Virus record (IMG/VR): IMGVR_UViG_3300032047_000146
Coordinates: 1-22,541 of that record
Reading direction: 5' to 3' (one strand)
DNA from: a virus
Length of the DNA: 22,541 nucleotides
Shown piece after piece: positions 3,343 to 9,435 of the stretch. Made by a program: the position numbers and the translations under genes. Positions within the stretch are counted from its first letter, which is position 1. Each line of letters begins with the position of its first letter. The notes under the pieces are model-generated. The model was given only the letters and a program-made list of their open reading frames with translations. It did not search any database and was not told the DNA's origin.

Positions 3343-3603
3343 TTATCCTTTGCCTGAACACAGCCTTTCATACACTTCATCTGCTACAGTCTCAGGGTTA
3401 CATTGCCATTCGAGACATGTAGGAAGGCACATATCATAAATGTCGTTCATAAACTTTGCTCCCATTCCCATCTGGCATGCTTTTCTGGTGCTCCCTGGTA
3501 TAATTGCAAGGCACTGTTGGACACAACCTTCTATTTTCATATCGGCTGATTCCAACAAAGTTTTTCTAATTGTTGTTCTAAGTTGTCTTACTGTAAGTCG
3601 CAT
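3343..3603 (-). CDS. Cysteine-rich small protein with candidate prohead-type N-terminal propeptide
   Basis: 86 residues, not matched to a family. The first 18 residues form a basic amphipathic stretch, MRLTVRQLRTTIRKTLLE, followed by S19; LLE before S fits the T4 gp21-type cleavage rule. The same peptide begins three other small proteins here. The remainder holds seven cysteines (27, 31, 43, 59, 63, 68, 82), including C-x3-C pairs at 27/31 and 59/63, which suggests paired helices with disulfides or a metal site. The start has GGAG 7 bases upstream. It sits alone between the recombinase terminator and the exonuclease promoter, a different place from the other three carriers. Internal capsid cargo is my inference; function is unknown. 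Confidence 0.8.
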   Translation of the reverse strand: MRLTVRQLRTTIRKTLLESADMKIEGCVQQCLAIIPGSTRKACQMGMGAKFMNDIYDMCLPTCLEWQCNPETVADEVYERLCSGKG

Positions 3604-3725: not shown

Positions 3726-4976
3726 TTATAAATCTTTGAATGCATCATCCGGTGCTGTCATGTCCATAGCAATTTGTCTCACTTCTTCATATGATTCGGG
3801 ATTGATGTCACCAGCATCTTCTAGCGATCTTCCCATGTATTCTGCAAAACATGTGTTGAATACTTTCATGCAGTAGGTGTTCCACTGAGGTGATTTGAAG
3901 ATTTGGTTGAATTCTGGTTTATAGAACTTCTTTTCTTCTAACACTTCGCCTGTGTCATTCTTGATTATGCAAATAGACTTCCATGCACCAGTACCTGATA
4001 TTTCTACTAAAAGATCTTTGTCATATTGGACCGGACCATTCTCTGAGCAGTACTTTCTAAGAACATCGAATACATATTCATGTTCCACAATACCTTTTCC
4101 AAAGTGGATCTCAAACTCACATCGGCGAAATGGCGCAGCTACTTTATTCTTAATAGTCTTCGCAATAACCTTGATACCAATGGGAGAACCTTGCTTGTCG
4201 AGGATTTGTTTACCCGAGTCCAGTTTGATTCGTACAGATGAGTGAAAAGGGATTGCCTTACCTCCGGGTGTAGTAGTAGGATCTCCATACATAACTCCAA
4301 TTTTTGTTCTGATTTGATTAAGACAGATAAGAAGTACTTTCTCATTTGCAATCAGTCCTGTAATCTTTCGCATACCTTTTGAAATAACACGAGCATTCAG
4401 GCCAATGGTCATCTTATCGTAATCACCTAAAAGTTCATCTTTTGGCGAAGTTGCCGCCACAGAATCCCAGATGATGGTGATGGGAACATCCTTATCTAGT
4501 TCCTTCGCTCTAAGTATGGTCTTCTCAGCGATTGATAACACTTCTTCTGTGCAATGTGTATCGACATATACGAAACGTTGAGTGATGTCAACTCCGAGTA
4601 ACTGAAGGTTCTCTACGGACGTTGCATTCTCTGTATCAATGTATACCACGATGCCACCAGATTCTTGCGTTGATTTGCATATCTGTATCGCGATGTGCGA
4701 TTTACCAATAGACGGTGGTCCAAAGATCTCAACGATGCGACCTTCTGGTAATCCTCCACATGGCCGGCCAGCTACGATGTAGTCAAGTTGGTCTGAGCCT
4801 GTACCAATCCATCGATTGACATGCGTAGGTGAATCTTCGATTGCAAGATTGTATGCAACACGAGATCCATGTTCTTTGTTGAGTGAACTAATCAATGAAC
4901 TGGTGAAATCACCTGTCATTGGCGCAGCTCCCTTTTTGTCTTTCTTTGCCTTTTTTGTTTTCTTTTTTATAGCCAT
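3726..4976 (-). CDS. RecA/UvsX family recombinase
   Basis: 416-residue strand-exchange ATPase for phage recombination, repair and recombination-dependent replication. Walker A is GPPSIGKS (86-93), Walker B is ITIIWDS (166-172), and NQIRTKIGVMYGDP (220-233) leads into the DNA-binding loops. KNKVAAPF (276-283) followed by EFEIHFGKGI matches bacterial RecA more closely than T4 UvsX, judged by eye. The N-terminus is a lysine-rich tail (MAIKKKTKKAKKDKK). About 115 residues follow the FGKGI motif; this C-terminal part does not look like the acidic RecA tail and I do not recognise it. The start has a very strong AAAGGAGG site. I saw no convincing promoter in the 50 bases between the SSB terminator and the start, so its transcription is unclear. 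Confidence 0.93.
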   Translation of the reverse strand: MAIKKKTKKAKKDKKGAAPMTGDFTSSLISSLNKEHGSRVAYNLAIEDSPTHVNRWIGTGSDQLDYIVAGRPCGGLPEGRIVEIFGPPSIGKSHIAIQICKSTQESGGIVVYIDTENATSVENLQLLGVDITQRFVYVDTHCTEEVLSIAEKTILRAKELDKDVPITIIWDSVAATSPKDELLGDYDKMTIGLNARVISKGMRKITGLIANEKVLLICLNQIRTKIGVMYGDPTTTPGGKAIPFHSSVRIKLDSGKQILDKQGSPIGIKVIAKTIKNKVAAPFRRCEFEIHFGKGIVEHEYVFDVLRKYCSENGPVQYDKDLLVEISGTGAWKSICIIKNDTGEVLEEKKFYKPEFNQIFKSPQWNTYCMKVFNTCFAEYMGRSLEDAGDINPESYEEVRQIAMDMTAPDDAFKDL

Positions 4977-5029
4977 TATAGCCTCCTTTGGTTATGTATA
5001 TAACTTACTCGGTGGACACTCCATTGTTC

Positions 5030-5060
5030 AAAAGAAAAGGGAGAAACTTTCGTTTCTCCC
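5030..5060 (-). terminator. Rho-independent terminator after the SSB gene (GAAA tetraloop)
   Basis: GGGAGAAAC - GAAA - GTTTCTCCC on the minus strand: a perfect 9-bp stem with a stable GNRA loop, then TTTTCTTTT. It ends the SSB transcript 27 bases after the stop codon. Confidence 0.88.
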
Positions 5061-5087
5061 CCGTGGAATGACCAACAATCTATAAGA

Positions 5088-5885
5088 TTAGAATGGAAGG
5101 TCACCACCAAGATCTGCAAATGCATCATCGATTTTATCGAATGAGTCAGAGGCTTCTTTCTTTTCCTTCTTCGTATTATTCGTACGAGTGAAGGTAGTAG
5201 TCGCTTCTTGCTTCTCATCTTCGTTATCAGCATCATCTCCGTTCAACCAAGCATTAATAATGCCTTCTAGTTGTTCATAAGATTTCATCTGAAAGACATC
5301 ATCGAGATCTGGAATGTTTTCTGTCCACTCTTTGATCTGCTTTTTAGTTCCAAGCTCGGTTGCTTTGGGACGAGGCATCACATCGGTAGTGGCATACATT
5401 TTTCCAGCTTGCTTTGAGCAAGTAACCTTGATGTCATGACCTTCATAAAGATCAGTAATGTCACCATAGTCTGGATCCAACATGATATTAAGAAGGTTTT
5501 GATACACCATCTTTCCGAATGCATAAAGACGAACACCTTGATCTTCCTCTCCACGAACAATTACTGCAGCGTAGCTTCTCATCTTGGGATACAACTTTTT
5601 GGCCATCTCGTAACCTTCCTTCGTACCTTCACTTTTGAACTTTTGAATCAGTTCGTTGATTGGGTCAGGCTTACCAAATTGGTATGGTGCGAGAAGTCCA
5701 GGGTTGTTGCCAATGTTATAGTAGAAGTACCGCTCCTTGAAAGGGTTCCCATCGTTATCAGTAAAACCGATAATGCGAATGGTAGTAGTCTCATCTTGCG
5801 GTGGACGCCACATTACACGTCGTTTAGAGTTGTTTCCAGATAGTTGTCCGAGTTTCTTACGGATTGCGTCAAAATCAATAGCCAT
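5088..5885 (-). CDS. Single-stranded DNA-binding protein, T4 gp32-like
   Basis: 265 residues with gp32-like layout: a basic N-terminus (KRRVMWRPPQ, 21-30) probably for cooperative binding, an OB-fold core with IRIIGFTD, RYFYYNIG and GKPDPINE, and a charged linker from about 215. The acidic C-terminus ends in DDAFADLGGDLPF, like the partner-binding tails of SSBs. T4 gp32 has a structural zinc site of three Cys and one His; here that segment reads LLAPYQFGKPDPI and the protein has a single cysteine (C146), so the zinc site is absent. It should coat single strands and recruit the recombinase and helicase encoded beside it. It has its own promoter, an AAGGAG ribosome site 8 bases upstream, and its own terminator, which suits a protein needed in large amounts. 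Confidence 0.88.
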   Translation of the reverse strand: MAIDFDAIRKKLGQLSGNNSKRRVMWRPPQDETTTIRIIGFTDNDGNPFKERYFYYNIGNNPGLLAPYQFGKPDPINELIQKFKSEGTKEGYEMAKKLYPKMRSYAAVIVRGEEDQGVRLYAFGKMVYQNLLNIMLDPDYGDITDLYEGHDIKVTCSKQAGKMYATTDVMPRPKATELGTKKQIKEWTENIPDLDDVFQMKSYEQLEGIINAWLNGDDADNEDEKQEATTTFTRTNNTKKEKKEASDSFDKIDDAFADLGGDLPF

Positions 5886-5953
5886 TACACTTTCTCCTTG
5901 ATAAATATTTAAATGTTCAAATGTATTGATACGTTCCTGAGTGGAACAATAGT

Positions 5954-5982
5954 ATCATACTCTGTTCATTCAATGTTTACAA
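5954..5982 (-). promoter_or_regulatory. Sigma70-like promoter of the SSB gene
   Basis: TTGTAA (5977-5982), 17 bases, TATGAT (5954-5959) on the minus strand, about 70 bases before the SSB start. It occupies the gap between the 138-residue gene and SSB and matches three other promoters in the window. Confidence 0.7.
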
Positions 5983-6005
5983 GAGAAAATGAAATTATTC
6001 TGTTG

Positions 6006-6422
6006 TTATTTTCTTTTGTCTTTATATATGGCCCGTTCGCTTTTAGAATGCTTCAATTCTTCGATGAGTTCGTCTATCTGAGCTTTGTCGATGGTTTCTT
6101 CTGTGTCTTCATCTTCTAAAACCACGTGTGTGTATCCTTTAGACTTTGCTAGTTCGAGTAAATCGATTTGTTTCTGAAAATTATCTCTGTGGCTTTTGGG
6201 GTATGGAGACATGATAAATGTCAACGTGTGATGATCAGTTGTGATTAACAGCTCTTTTCTATTCTCAGATTCCCGTCGAGCTTCTTCTCGCGCTCCCCAA
6301 CCGCCGAACGGTGTTCTATCTTGAAAATATTCTCTTTCGATTTCCTCTGGAGATCTATCACCGAATCCTTCTCCGAGTACCTTACGGATCATCTTTCTCA
6401 ATCTTGGTATTGTTGTTCTCAT
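6006..6422 (-). CDS. Small protein with candidate prohead-type N-terminal propeptide
   Basis: 138 residues, no recognised family. The N-terminus MRTTIPRLRKMIRKVLGE is followed by G19, so LGE-G sits at the same position (18/19) as the LLE-S and ILE-S of two other small proteins here. The rest begins glycine-rich and charged (GFGDRSPEE), then a mixed domain with strands LLITTDHHTLTFIMSP and YTHVVLEDED separated by a helix, ending in a Lys/Glu-rich helix. It is last of a three-gene cluster of such proteins, 36 bases after the previous stop. The start has GGAG 6 bases upstream, just below a dyad (6434-6447). Capsid cargo is inferred, not shown. Confidence 0.8.
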   Translation of the reverse strand: MRTTIPRLRKMIRKVLGEGFGDRSPEEIEREYFQDRTPFGGWGAREEARRESENRKELLITTDHHTLTFIMSPYPKSHRDNFQKQIDLLELAKSKGYTHVVLEDEDTEETIDKAQIDELIEELKHSKSERAIYKDKRK

Positions 6423-6433
6423 TATTTTCTCCA

Positions 6434-6447
6434 GTACCGACCGGTAC
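6434..6447. repeat. Perfect 6-bp inverted repeat in intergenic gap
   Basis: GTACCG-AC-CGGTAC, read on the plus strand, in the 36-base gap between two small genes and 11 bases from the next start codon. It could be an operator-like dyad or a small hairpin; it has no T-run, so it is not an obvious terminator. Confidence 0.5.
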
Positions 6448-6458
6448 GATTAACTGCC

Positions 6459-6839
6459 TCATTCATCATATTCTTCTAAAGCTTTTTTAATGCTCATTGC
6501 ATTTTTTGATTTAAGTTTTTTATTCTTGGTGTAAGGTTTTTGACCTGGACCGTTCCCAGCTCCCAAGGGGCCAATAGCTCCTACAATTGCATGTTCGTCA
6601 GATATATCTTCTTCTTGCGATTGAAGTCTTATCACTTTTTTCATCGATGATCTCTTTTCTCTGCCTGTTATATAATCATCTCTTTCCTCTTGGTGAGTCA
6701 AGTCAGGTTCTGCTAGTAGATCAGAATCTGCTTCTTCTCCCGGAAGAACTGTGTCATCATAGACTCTTTCTTCAGATTCATAAGATTCTAAAATAACTCT
6801 TCTAATAGTTTTTCTTAACTCGACTAACTTAATTCTCAT
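6459..6839 (-). CDS. Acidic small protein with candidate prohead-type N-terminal propeptide
   Basis: 126 residues, no named family. It starts MRIKLVELRKTIRRVILE followed by S19, so ILE-S matches the (L/I)-x-E cleavage rule at the same position as its neighbours. The next 50 residues are strongly acidic and look disordered (SYESEERVYDD, LLAEPDLTHQEERDD). A Gly/Pro-rich segment AIVGAIGPLGAGNGPGQKPY (about 84-103) and a lysine-rich helical end follow. Its ATG overlaps the previous stop (ATGA) with no good ribosome site, so it is probably translated by coupling. The acid-then-basic design would suit a packaged or scaffold-associated protein, but that is inference. Confidence 0.8.
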   Translation of the reverse strand: MRIKLVELRKTIRRVILESYESEERVYDDTVLPGEEADSDLLAEPDLTHQEERDDYITGREKRSSMKKVIRLQSQEEDISDEHAIVGAIGPLGAGNGPGQKPYTKNKKLKSKNAMSIKKALEEYDE

Positions 6840-7177
6840 TGCATGTAATCCGGATGTACATCAAAAAAGTCTTCATATCCACCAGTGAGCATTCCCGCAT
6901 CGACCATATCAAACATGATCTGTAATACTTCTTCATACGACATGCTACTAACATACTCAGCTCTTGGATCACCGAGAGGATCATTAGAATAATTTTGAAG
7001 ATAATCAATAACATCTTGAACGACTAGTTCTCCGCCTTGTTCTTGGCCAATGTACAAAATCTCATTCTGAATATCGCCGTGTAGTGTCTTCATGCTTTCA
7101 GAAAGCATGCCTCTTTGGTGCAGCTTTTGATATTCTTCTCTAATAATTCTTTTCAATTGTCTTTTTGATAATCTCAT
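6836..7177 (-). CDS. Small protein with basic N-terminal helix and LSE-S site
   Basis: 113 residues, unrecognised. The N-terminus MRLSKRQLKRIIREEYQK matches the shared peptide (M-R-x5-L-[KR]-x2-I-R), and an LSE-S candidate cleavage site lies at 25-28 rather than 16-19. The rest looks like a small acidic helical protein: VVQDVIDYLQNY, MSYEEVLQIMFDMVDAGML, EDFFDVHPDYMQ. A longer frame opens at 7207, but that start lies inside the upstream terminator hairpin, and AGGAG sits 7 bases before the ATG at 7177, so I use 7177. It is first of three adjacent genes with this N-terminus, and its stop overlaps the next start. Confidence 0.8.
   Translation of the reverse strand: MRLSKRQLKRIIREEYQKLHQRGMLSESMKTLHGDIQNEILYIGQEQGGELVVQDVIDYLQNYSNDPLGDPRAEYVSSMSYEEVLQIMFDMVDAGMLTGGYEDFFDVHPDYMQ
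7091..7109. repeat. Perfect 19-bp palindrome inside a coding region
   Basis: CATGCTTTC-A-GAAAGCATG, 9-bp arms around one base. It lies within the gene at 6836-7177 over the codons for M-L-S-E-S-M, exactly at the predicted LSE-S cleavage site. It could be an RNA hairpin, a protein-binding site, or chance. Confidence 0.6.
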
Positions 7178-7193
7178 CACTTCTCTCCTAATA

Positions 7194-7217
7194 ATAAAAA
7201 GGGACATTACGTCCCTT
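7194..7217 (-). terminator. Rho-independent terminator after the HD-domain gene
   Basis: AAGGGAC-GTAAT-GTCCCTT on the minus strand (7-bp perfect stem, 5-base loop), followed at once by TTTATTATT. It lies 31 bases past the HD gene stop and only about 17 bases before the next start codon. Confidence 0.75.
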
Positions 7218-7247
7218 AATTATACTCAACCCATCGAAACTGTTACA

Positions 7248-7781
7248 TTATTCTTCTAACATGTCTCTTGCATGTAAAAGAATAGATCCTAAAGTATTTT
7301 TTCCTTCTCTTTCATCCAAAGAAACTAATGCAATAAATTCTTCTTCTGTCAATTTTATTTGAAAATAATTTAAAAAATGCATAGTTCTTTGAAGATGTGA
7401 CATTTTTGGTAAATCAAAATTAATTTTAAACTCATTTCCAAGTTTTTCTCTATGCCAATCTGAATCTTGTGGAAGAAGCCAGTCACTCTCTATAGTACCT
7501 AGTCTCCCTATGTCATGAAGAAGGCCTACTTTGTACACGGATTTGATGTCAACTGGTGTTCCATGGAAATTATTTAAATCCTGCATTGCTTTGGCTAACT
7601 TTGTCGATGTTGCAACAATTCCTCCAGGATAACATCCATATTGCTTGTTGTTAGAATTAGCAGGGGCTAGACAAATTCTTTGACCTTGATCTTCTAACAT
7701 TTCATTAATGTTTTTGTCTTCTAGTCGACTTAGAATAGTTTTGAAAGTTGTCCAGTTCTTTTTTATAATTTCCATATCCAT
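7248..7781 (-). CDS. HD-superfamily phosphohydrolase-like protein, possibly with a reduced metal site
   Basis: 177 residues. The core VGLLHDIGRLG (85-95) contains the H89-D90 pair of metal-dependent HD hydrolases. The layout YPGGIV (51-56), LLPQDSDWHREKLGNEF (102-118) and LTEEEFIALVSLD (144-156) matches a family common in large phages, usually of unknown substrate. Family members as I recall them have histidines in the GGLxEHS helix and an HD-like pair near the end; here these positions read GGIVATST and SLDE, so some ligands may be lost. The start has GGAG 6 bases upstream. The gene is a single transcription unit with its own promoter and terminator. Nucleotide phosphohydrolase activity is possible but not established. 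Confidence 0.75.
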   Translation of the reverse strand: MDMEIIKKNWTTFKTILSRLEDKNINEMLEDQGQRICLAPANSNNKQYGCYPGGIVATSTKLAKAMQDLNNFHGTPVDIKSVYKVGLLHDIGRLGTIESDWLLPQDSDWHREKLGNEFKINFDLPKMSHLQRTMHFLNYFQIKLTEEEFIALVSLDEREGKNTLGSILLHARDMLEE

Positions 7782-7846: not shown

Positions 7847-8389
7847 TCATGCTTTTCCGTACCAGACATAAATACTTTTTCCATCTTTTCGATACCTAAG
7901 ATATTTTTCTCTTCTTTTTCTTTTTCCGTCCATTAGGCAAGCATGAATAATAGAATCAAACCAAAATTTATAGAACCTTATTAGCTGAGTGTCCGCAGAA
8001 ATTATATCTTTTCCAGATTTGCTTAGAGAAATCTTAGCAACTTTTCCTCTTTGGAAATGCTTCATGATCTTTACTGATGAAAAGAAAACTCTGAATTCGT
8101 CTGTTGATCTTAAAATTGATTTCATTAGTTTTTCAAAGTCTTCTGTTTGACTAATATTGAGATCTTTTCTAAAGTTTGCAGGATCTTTAATCGCTTTTGA
8201 TGTTTGATTAGTTGAAACAATTTTTGCATCTTTTGCAGACTTGATATTCAATAATTTTCTAACTTCCATGGAAATAGGTCCTGGACTAATGCTCTGGAGT
8301 GCATTCCAATCCTCCGAAGCTATAGAATCTAATTCACCAGTGGATTCATTTTCTTTTTCTAATAATAAATACTCTAACAAATTTTTCAT
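7847..8389 (-). CDS. Uncharacterised protein coupled to the polymerase-like gene
   Basis: 180 residues, unrecognised. I use the ATG at 8389 (MKNLLEYLLLEKEN): GAGG lies 7 bases upstream, and ATGA overlaps the polymerase-like stop, which points to translational coupling. An in-frame ATG at 8404 has no such site. The middle is helical and lysine-rich. The C-terminal third, LIRFYKFWFDSIIHACLMDG followed by a run of Lys/Arg and YLRYRKDGKSIYVWYGKA, is aromatic and basic, which would suit nucleic-acid or partner binding. The first 11 residues resemble the T4 internal-protein leader MKTYQEFIAE in shape, but P1' would be lysine, so processing is doubtful. Confidence 0.75.
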   Translation of the reverse strand: MKNLLEYLLLEKENESTGELDSIASEDWNALQSISPGPISMEVRKLLNIKSAKDAKIVSTNQTSKAIKDPANFRKDLNISQTEDFEKLMKSILRSTDEFRVFFSSVKIMKHFQRGKVAKISLSKSGKDIISADTQLIRFYKFWFDSIIHACLMDGKRKRREKYLRYRKDGKSIYVWYGKA

Positions 8390-9435
8390 ATCACATCCTC
8401 GCATGTTATAGGAAATTTCATATTGTCTATAATTATCTCTCTCGGTACATTTCCTTCACCAGAAAATATGCATGCATCGTGAATAAGCCAATGTGGCTTG
8501 AAATGCTGATTATTCCGAAAGAAATCAGCGAATCCTTTAATCGCTGCGTCGGCTGCGCTAGACTGTAGCCACAGAGAAAGAAGGTGTCTTCCCTTTACAC
8601 CTTCAGTTTTTATTGGTCTTCCATAATAATTCTCAATTACGTCATCCACAACATTTGCTTCCAGCTGTTTTTCCCATTCATCCAATCCAAATAGCTTAGT
8701 GACTGTAGGTATCTGTCTAGCTGATCCATACAACGATGAAATGATTGCAATCTTTGTGTGAGTTCGATCATCTGATAGACCTGCTTTCTTTGCGACCCAA
8801 TCGTATAGATCTCCTTCGACGTGTATTCCACTTACATTCAAAAGAAAACGTGGTTCCATCGACGAGAAATCGATCTGTCTGCAACCTTTTACGACATTCC
8901 GATATTCAGCTTTCATTGTCATCACCTGCGGGCCTGAGATAACACTTAGTCTACCTGTTTTGATTTTAGATCGTACATAACGGACTGTTTGAATTAACTT
9001 CCCATCTGTTCTTATTTTGATAGGTGCATCGATCTTCTTAAGTGCACTGTATCGTGTATAATCCAAAGGAGCCGGTTGAAGAGACCATAGCCAATCATTT
9101 GTATCATAATAGAACTTAGTATACCTGTGTCCTATTATCGACTGTAAGTCATGACATGTCTGCAGAGTATATTCTTGCAATCGTTTCTTAAACTGTGGTC
9201 CGATAAGTCCTACAAAGTTTGCATTCTTAAGACCAAGTTCTGTTGCCATCCTTAGATACTTCTTTTCTATCAATGGTTGAATATCATGGCCATGAATCTT
9301 CATCAAAGGTTCTATAGATCTAGGATGAGGGCAACCAAAAAGATAATTCTGAACTTTTGGTTGCCATGACCAATCTTTTCCATTCCAAGTCAGGTACCTT
9401 TCGGTACCAGTTATTTTATTACATATAGAGAGCAT
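8386..9435 (-). CDS. Compact family A DNA polymerase-like protein, no exonuclease domain
   Basis: 349 residues with the Pol I palm and fingers motifs in order. TGRLSVISGPQVM (160-172) corresponds to the Pol I TGRLSS segment. Motif A is QIDFSSMEPRFLL (187-199) with D189 and E194. Motif B is RTHTKIAIISSLYG (224-237) with K228 and Y236. The QSSAADAA helix is at 291-298, and motif C is IHDACIF (318-324) with H319 and D320. The metal Asp pair is present, but the Glu after motif C Asp (HDE in Pol I) is Ala. There is no 3'-5' exonuclease domain, and the N-terminal 150 residues are too short for a full thumb and exonuclease. At about 350 residues it is much smaller than the 580-900 usual for the family. 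It may be an accessory, repair or divergent replicative polymerase. No ribosome site precedes the ATG. Confidence 0.75.
   Translation of the reverse strand: MLSICNKITGTERYLTWNGKDWSWQPKVQNYLFGCPHPRSIEPLMKIHGHDIQPLIEKKYLRMATELGLKNANFVGLIGPQFKKRLQEYTLQTCHDLQSIIGHRYTKFYYDTNDWLWSLQPAPLDYTRYSALKKIDAPIKIRTDGKLIQTVRYVRSKIKTGRLSVISGPQVMTMKAEYRNVVKGCRQIDFSSMEPRFLLNVSGIHVEGDLYDWVAKKAGLSDDRTHTKIAIISSLYGSARQIPTVTKLFGLDEWEKQLEANVVDDVIENYYGRPIKTEGVKGRHLLSLWLQSSAADAAIKGFADFFRNNQHFKPHWLIHDACIFSGEGNVPREIIIDNMKFPITCEDVI

Follow-up and report, generated by a model that had tools for sequence, protein, structure and literature searches.

One short N-terminal label on dozens of unrelated proteins in marine T4-like phages, most likely for loading into the head

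Introduction

The contents that large phages inject along with their DNA are mostly unknown. In phage T4, the internal proteins (IPs) IPI, IPII and IPIII as well as Alt carry a capsid-targeting sequence (CTS) of 10 residues that gp21 cuts; IPII and IPIII begin MKTYQEFIAE/A (slashes mark processing sites, putative ones included). For IPIII, the first ten residues suffice, with residues 4 and 7 mattering for targeting and residues 8 and 10 for processing (PMC9026906). T4 Ip1–3 have the leader alone in common, and each blocks distinct GmrSD restriction enzymes (PMC12373910). Among the head proteins of giant phages, some propeptides are only 20–24 residues long (PMC10052503).

Here, we analyzed a 22,541-base virus record, a fragment of a T4-like myophage (hereafter, the window), together with its relatives. 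The comparison suggests that marine T4-like phages place one short label on dozens of unrelated proteins, most likely for head loading.

Results

Tagged proteins in the window

The window carries genes for a DnaB-like helicase, an exonuclease, UvsX, a gp32-like single-stranded DNA-binding protein (SSB), a gp53-like wedge protein and a possible tape measure protein; no head genes were found in this 22.5-kb fragment. The original prediction had described four small proteins that begin alike and might form a family of packaged cargo. All four open reading frames were confirmed on the minus strand at their coordinates and with their N-termini, with a Shine-Dalgarno-like sequence upstream (Table 1). 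Each leader fits M-R-x5-L-[RK]-x2-I-R, a pattern seen in 4 of the 19 called window genes, and across 159,572 internal positions in the proteomes examined these residues turned up once. The shared leader is far beyond chance. The bodies of the four proteins gave no family match, barring one weak match below the cut-off. The body of protein 1 shares 42% identity over 57 residues with a tagged protein (178302–178652) of a syntenic 273-kb contig, G001, and the homologue of protein 3 in a close relative, L005, bears the tag MRIRLDELRKIIRTIILE/G. An AF2 model of protein 4 has a helix at residues 5–21, a break at the site and folded helices thereafter, at low confidence (pLDDT 63).

Table 1. Tagged genes of the window and the genes that flank their cluster
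Feature	Position	Strand	Remarks
Tagged protein 1, 86 aa, Cys-containing body	3343..3603	-	ORF and ribosome-binding site
Tag of protein 1, MRLTVRQLRTTIRKTLLE/S	3550..3603	-	
gp32-like ssDNA-binding protein	5088..5885	-	phrog_1192, E 2e-25; flanks the tagged cluster on one side
Tagged protein 2, 138 aa	6006..6422	-	Weak DUF7189 match below the cut-off
Tag of protein 2, MRTTIPRLRKMIRKVLGE/G	6369..6422	-	
Tagged protein 3, 126 aa, acidic body	6459..6839	-	ORF; homologue in L005
Tag of protein 3, MRIKLVELRKTIRRVILE/S	6786..6839	-	
Tagged protein 4, 113 aa	6836..7177	-	Body 88% identical to second module of G001 172839–173366
Tag of protein 4, long form, MRLSKRQLKRIIREEYQKLHQRGMLSE/S	7097..7177	-	
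HD-like protein	7248..7781	-	PF01966 below the cut-off; opposite flank of the tagged cluster, no tag
Probable fifth tagged protein, 180 aa	7847..8389	-	Tag MKNLLEYLLLE/K at 8357–8389

The window is collinear with 148.7–166.5 kb of G001, with 73% identity for the helicase, 72% for UvsX and 74% for SSB. The interval between the SSB and HD-like genes (window 5885–7248; G001 161160–161956; G003 4352–7150) holds tagged genes in all three phages, and the bodies of these genes differ among the window, G001 and G003. The HD-like gene itself keeps its position in relatives and has homologues in tens of loci. The SSB–HD interval is a conserved slot for turnover of the putative cargo. A 349-amino-acid window protein (8386–9435), which had no family match, also keeps its position in G001, G003 and G014.

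Distribution of the tag

We described two leader types as position matrices calibrated on internal positions, class 1 (MKITRRQLRRIIKE...) and class 3 (MKNLRQYIRKILxE), and assigned gene starts with a simple caller based on ribosome-binding sites. Two of the genomes in which tags were then counted had also served to train the matrices, which identified 86 tagged proteins in five sets (G001, G014, G002, G003 and the window). The idea of a single leader recurring on dozens of unrelated bodies held in the syntenic G001, where 46 of the 363 called genes are tagged. These genes cluster (27 adjacent pairs versus 5.7 expected), with a dense array at 252–264 kb; on contig G031, a stretch of 15 kb holds about 28 of them.

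Under the class-3 matrix, the T4 IPIII leader ranks in the top 0.06% of internal and the top 0.4% of N-terminal positions. A similar score was obtained for the leader of the probable fifth window member, which the original prediction did not include and which begins MKNLLEYLLLE/KENES if translation starts at the second Met; a weakly similar L005 protein (E 0.001) begins MRTLYDFLLME/AKS. A further, Trp-containing leader type was observed at the starts of L144:1115 (MKLLFEGWKKFLKE/A), L208:8660 (MKLIMENWKRYLIE/S) and L258:4627 (MRKLLTEWRKYIME/A).

Because a tblastn search of cultured phages with the bare 29-residue leader gave no match, possibly through removal of the query by the low-complexity filter, we searched for the tag with DNA patterns. 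The exact 42-base class-1 start pattern was present in at least 120 stretches in IMG/VR; among 84,980 bacterial and archaeal genomes, it matched four contigs only, and two of these four metagenome-assembled genomes (MAGs) had an S77 protease. The tag contigs NHDW01000006.1 and PBIO01000025.1 (L303–L308) had been binned into Methylococcaceae and Halobacteriovorax MAGs. At 101,404 bases, the Halobacteriovorax-binned contig has the same size as an IMG/VR viral contig, and the MAG tag contigs are therefore probably phage contigs in bacterial bins.

A shorter DNA pattern was present in all 15 tag contigs tested, and its reversed version had zero matches. The pattern was absent from T4, S-PM2, RM378, Mel-JY01 and two very large phages, and 9 out of 10 large contigs picked as controls with unrelated 14-mers lacked it too. 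One match was found in Flavobacterium phage immuto, which is the nearest cultured relative to judge from MCP and terminase and has a gp21-like protease. There were no tag arrays in immuto, only a few leader-like starts, among them ...RMQKLAGIITE/S, MQFLAGIITE/S and MIKLIDLLTE/S (L131:11675–12139 and L129:24569–25456), and we found no proteomics in one related publication. None of the cultured phages checked had class-1 arrays, and full-text literature searches for leader strings returned no paper.

The site at the end of the leader

According to the original prediction, the leader ends at an (L/I)-x-E site. At the sequence level this was upheld: counting over residues 7–33, we found such a site in 81 out of 86 tagged proteins and in 197 out of 811 others, with A or S favored as the next residue. 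When A, G or S was required at that position, the counts were 46 out of 86 and 81 out of 811, respectively. The site was missing in five of the 86, and P1' was often none of these three residues. The main sites fall at residues 14, 18, 21/22 and 27 in class 1 and at 14/15 in class 3.

Since Glu14 is partly built into the class-1 matrix, we made three further tests of the site. For class-3 tags, whose matrix covers residues 1–10 only, a site ended within residues 11–18 in 25 out of 25 proteins, versus 100 out of 811 others. Pairwise identity of tagged proteins dropped to about 0.0–0.15 right after the site, except within one paralogous family and for a residual preference for A or S at the position that follows. 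Finally, in 341 class-1 proteins from newly fetched loci, a few of which lie on training-set contigs, a second site followed in 140 out of 190 proteins with Glu14-Glu15, in 35 out of 131 without Glu15 and in 16 out of 20 without Glu14 (downstream control 10–17%; Fisher p 6e-17). Thus, where the first site would be blocked (E14-E15), a later one usually appears to replace it.

Tag exchange and tags between domains

Leaders appear to be exchanged at the site, as a tag serving many different payloads would predict: homologous bodies share the junction, whereas the tag in front of it differs. The body of protein 4 (SMKTLHGDIQNEIL) follows MRLSKRQLKRIIREEYQKLHQRGMLSE in the window, and its L005 homologue follows MRLSKTHLRRTIRRVLKE; in G001, this body forms the second module of a longer protein and is preceded by an internal SKINLRLRTKIRRLTE. 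A [LIVM]xE motif lay within four residues of the junction in 168 of 213 homology junctions, which include homologues that are not independent, compared with 25% in the control.

Tags were also found within proteins. L166:7070–9766 (899 amino acids) comprises DUF192, a tRNA nucleotidyltransferase/poly(A) polymerase head, a module of no known family and PAP2. Between the first two lies SILRKSIRLLLRE/S; SVIVRLLTE/A precedes the third module, which is a single tagged gene in G001, and NFVKEILKE/E separates that module from PAP2. L225, L155 and L221 follow the same plan, with internal tags between domains. To judge from their sequences, these tag-punctuated multi-domain proteins look built for cutting apart.

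Head-assembly genes in relatives

The head genes of G001 are in T4-like order: terminase, portal, S77 protease (phrog_207, E 2e-49), a protein in the scaffold position, and MCP. The putative scaffold (128606–130345) is assigned by place and composition, being 579 amino acids long, acidic and without a family match. It has 12 (L/I)xE[AGS] sites, the most of any G001 protein (Poisson p 1e-8). The charge of the tag is basic, at +3.5, versus an acidic −49 for the scaffold, and the tag forms an amphipathic helix (moment 0.67 versus 0.27). Similar motifs occur in the other head proteins of the two phages: LREA ends at residue 59 of the G001 MCP and LTEA is at 65 in T4 gp23, and IKES is at 178 in the G001 protease and ITES at 187 in T4 gp21.

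A search for a gp21-like S77 protease, as the original prediction had proposed, found one, together with T4-like head genes, in G001 and in all 13 tag-selected contigs of at least 167 kb, all of them relatives of the window fragment. As far as these relatives go, there was no tag-bearing genome that lacked a prohead protease. S77 was also found in 5 out of 8 random viral control contigs of at least 150 kb (4 out of 7 without the tag; p about 0.03). We had first taken this co-occurrence as strong support; because random large contigs often carry S77, it is weak support.

Bodies behind the tag

Most tagged bodies belong to no family. Those recognized include a tRNA nucleotidyltransferase, a polynucleotide kinase, a tRNA-ligase phosphodiesterase-type domain, a 5'-deoxyribonucleotidase, HD and PAP2 hydrolases, and an M78-type peptidase domain. 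One weak match to ART-PolyVal (E 9e-4), a domain typical of polyvalent proteins, was obtained among 96 proteins. The bodies are mostly acidic, with a median pI of 4.7, compared with 11 for class-1 tags. In G001, 255404–262464 (L108) holds four paralogous tagged genes in one array, with a GPLLYDVAIEWAT motif. The predicted secondary structure of this family runs in GNAT-like order and a GNAT-like fold is suspected; its AF2 model had a pLDDT of 47, PDB matches were meaningless and no relative with a solved structure turned up. Activities such as tRNA repair and nucleotide hydrolysis may be of use during the first minutes of infection, and the annotated payloads outside the window suggest early counter-defense or takeover enzymes.

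Discussion

We infer cleavage, packaging and injection from these comparisons, and we are fairly confident that these proteins are head-packaged cargo and share, at their N-terminus, a cleavable propeptide for capsid targeting. The leader, an amphipathic helix of basic character (M-[KR]-I-T-x-x-Q-L-R-x-I-I-[KR]-E or the more T4-like M-K-x-L-R-x-Y-I-R), would bind the acidic scaffold in the growing head, and the gp21-like S77 protease would then cut after (L/I)-x-E, mostly before A or S. The freed body would stay in the head and probably be delivered to the host with the DNA. Part of the tagged set may nonetheless consist of ordinary core proteins or of proteins associated with the scaffold. 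Any body could become cargo by gaining a tag, and bodies could be strung together with a tag and site between them and then cut apart. That this amounts to a portable code able to load any protein, with about 45 pre-made proteins per virion and some tag-punctuated polyproteins cut before injection into enzymes (tRNA repair, nucleotide or phosphate hydrolases), seems to us slightly better than an even bet.

We think it unlikely that the leader, as a cleaved scaffold-binding propeptide, sits instead on proteins for head assembly or internal structure, which would remain in the particle. G001 core proteins encoded next to the protease do start in a similar way (126392, ...LKQLIKECLVEILVE/G; 126898, ...LKEFILQE/A), and five tagged genes come immediately after the MCP gene. 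However, 46 in one genome, with bodies that differ at the same locus in relatives, are too many and too variable for this role, and tRNA nucleotidyltransferase, polynucleotide kinase, PAP2 and other enzyme domains do not fit it. It is very improbable that the leader is a helix for sorting within the cell or for binding a partner (for example a replication compartment, a membrane or the phage RNA polymerase), unrelated to the head, with (L/I)xE a mere part of the helix. The amphipathic character of the tag would suit such a helix, as would the position of some copies near replication genes, as in the window, but the end of conservation at the site, the compensation, the exchange at the site and the inter-domain tags all point to cutting, and the scaffold is rich in such sites. 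We rejected as extremely improbable a DNA-level relic, whether of recent duplication or recombination or as a translation-initiation element, because, although tagged genes cluster as local duplication would have them do, 44% of pairs encode identical tag residues by different codons, exact nucleotide matches vary widely and internal tag copies have no start codon.

If the reading of the leader as a targeting propeptide is true, the tag provides a sequence-only readout of the packaged repertoire in uncultured T4-like phages, along with hundreds of candidate counter-defense or takeover proteins, mostly without a known family. Given the activities of T4 Ip1–3, a repertoire of far greater size with a similar leader would be a direct source of anti-defense proteins. 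In the literature searched, we found no description of a prohead protease that serves to cut tag-punctuated polyproteins, as would be the case here.

Several known systems resemble this one in part. In the giant phages SPN3US (gp245 substrates), phiKZ and 201phi2-1, the prohead protease trims N-terminal propeptides after Glu from several head proteins (PMC10052503); in SPN3US, however, only nine substrates have been identified, most with propeptides of 111–254 residues, and no shared tag on dozens of proteins is described there (PMC10052503). For P1 DarB, the N-terminal residues are enough to direct a reporter to the capsid (PMC9024508), but DarB is a single protein with no multi-protein tag family described, in a phage without a known separate scaffold. 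Polyvalent proteins combine multiple domains with disparate enzyme activities, and their packaging and injection have been predicted (Iyer et al. 2017, PMC5512222). L166:7070–9766 likewise joins several disparate enzyme domains in a single chain, which the window proteins do not; processing of polyvalent proteins has been proposed to occur through their own peptidase domains, whereas here there are prohead-protease-type sites and tags between domains.

The likeness to T4 goes further. T4 IPI, IPII, IPIII and Alt likewise have a short N-terminal leader on unrelated bodies and an (L/I)-x-E/A-type site, and the T4 genome, like that of G001, combines an S77 protease with a many-site acidic scaffold and a gp23-like MCP. 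Class-3 tags retain the hydrophobic residues 4, 7 and 8 that are important in T4 IPIII (PMC9026906). By contrast, class-1 tags, the main type of the window, differ in consensus, charge and length, with no clear likeness to MKTYQEFIAE, and the tag sites lie at residues 14, 18, 22 or 27 rather than after the ten residues of the T4 CTS. T4 has three IPs plus Alt, and at least ten IPs are known across T4 relatives (PMC12373910), compared with up to 46 tagged proteins per genome here. T4 IPs are basic (PMC9026906), unlike most of the bodies described here, and tags inside polyproteins, present in the phages studied here, are foreign to the T4 IP system. Because class-1 tags differ and the bodies are acidic, the tag set would work like the T4 CTS without being a member of the T4 IP family. 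What is new relative to the known T4 CTS kind is the different consensus, the much larger repertoire and the tag-punctuated polyproteins.
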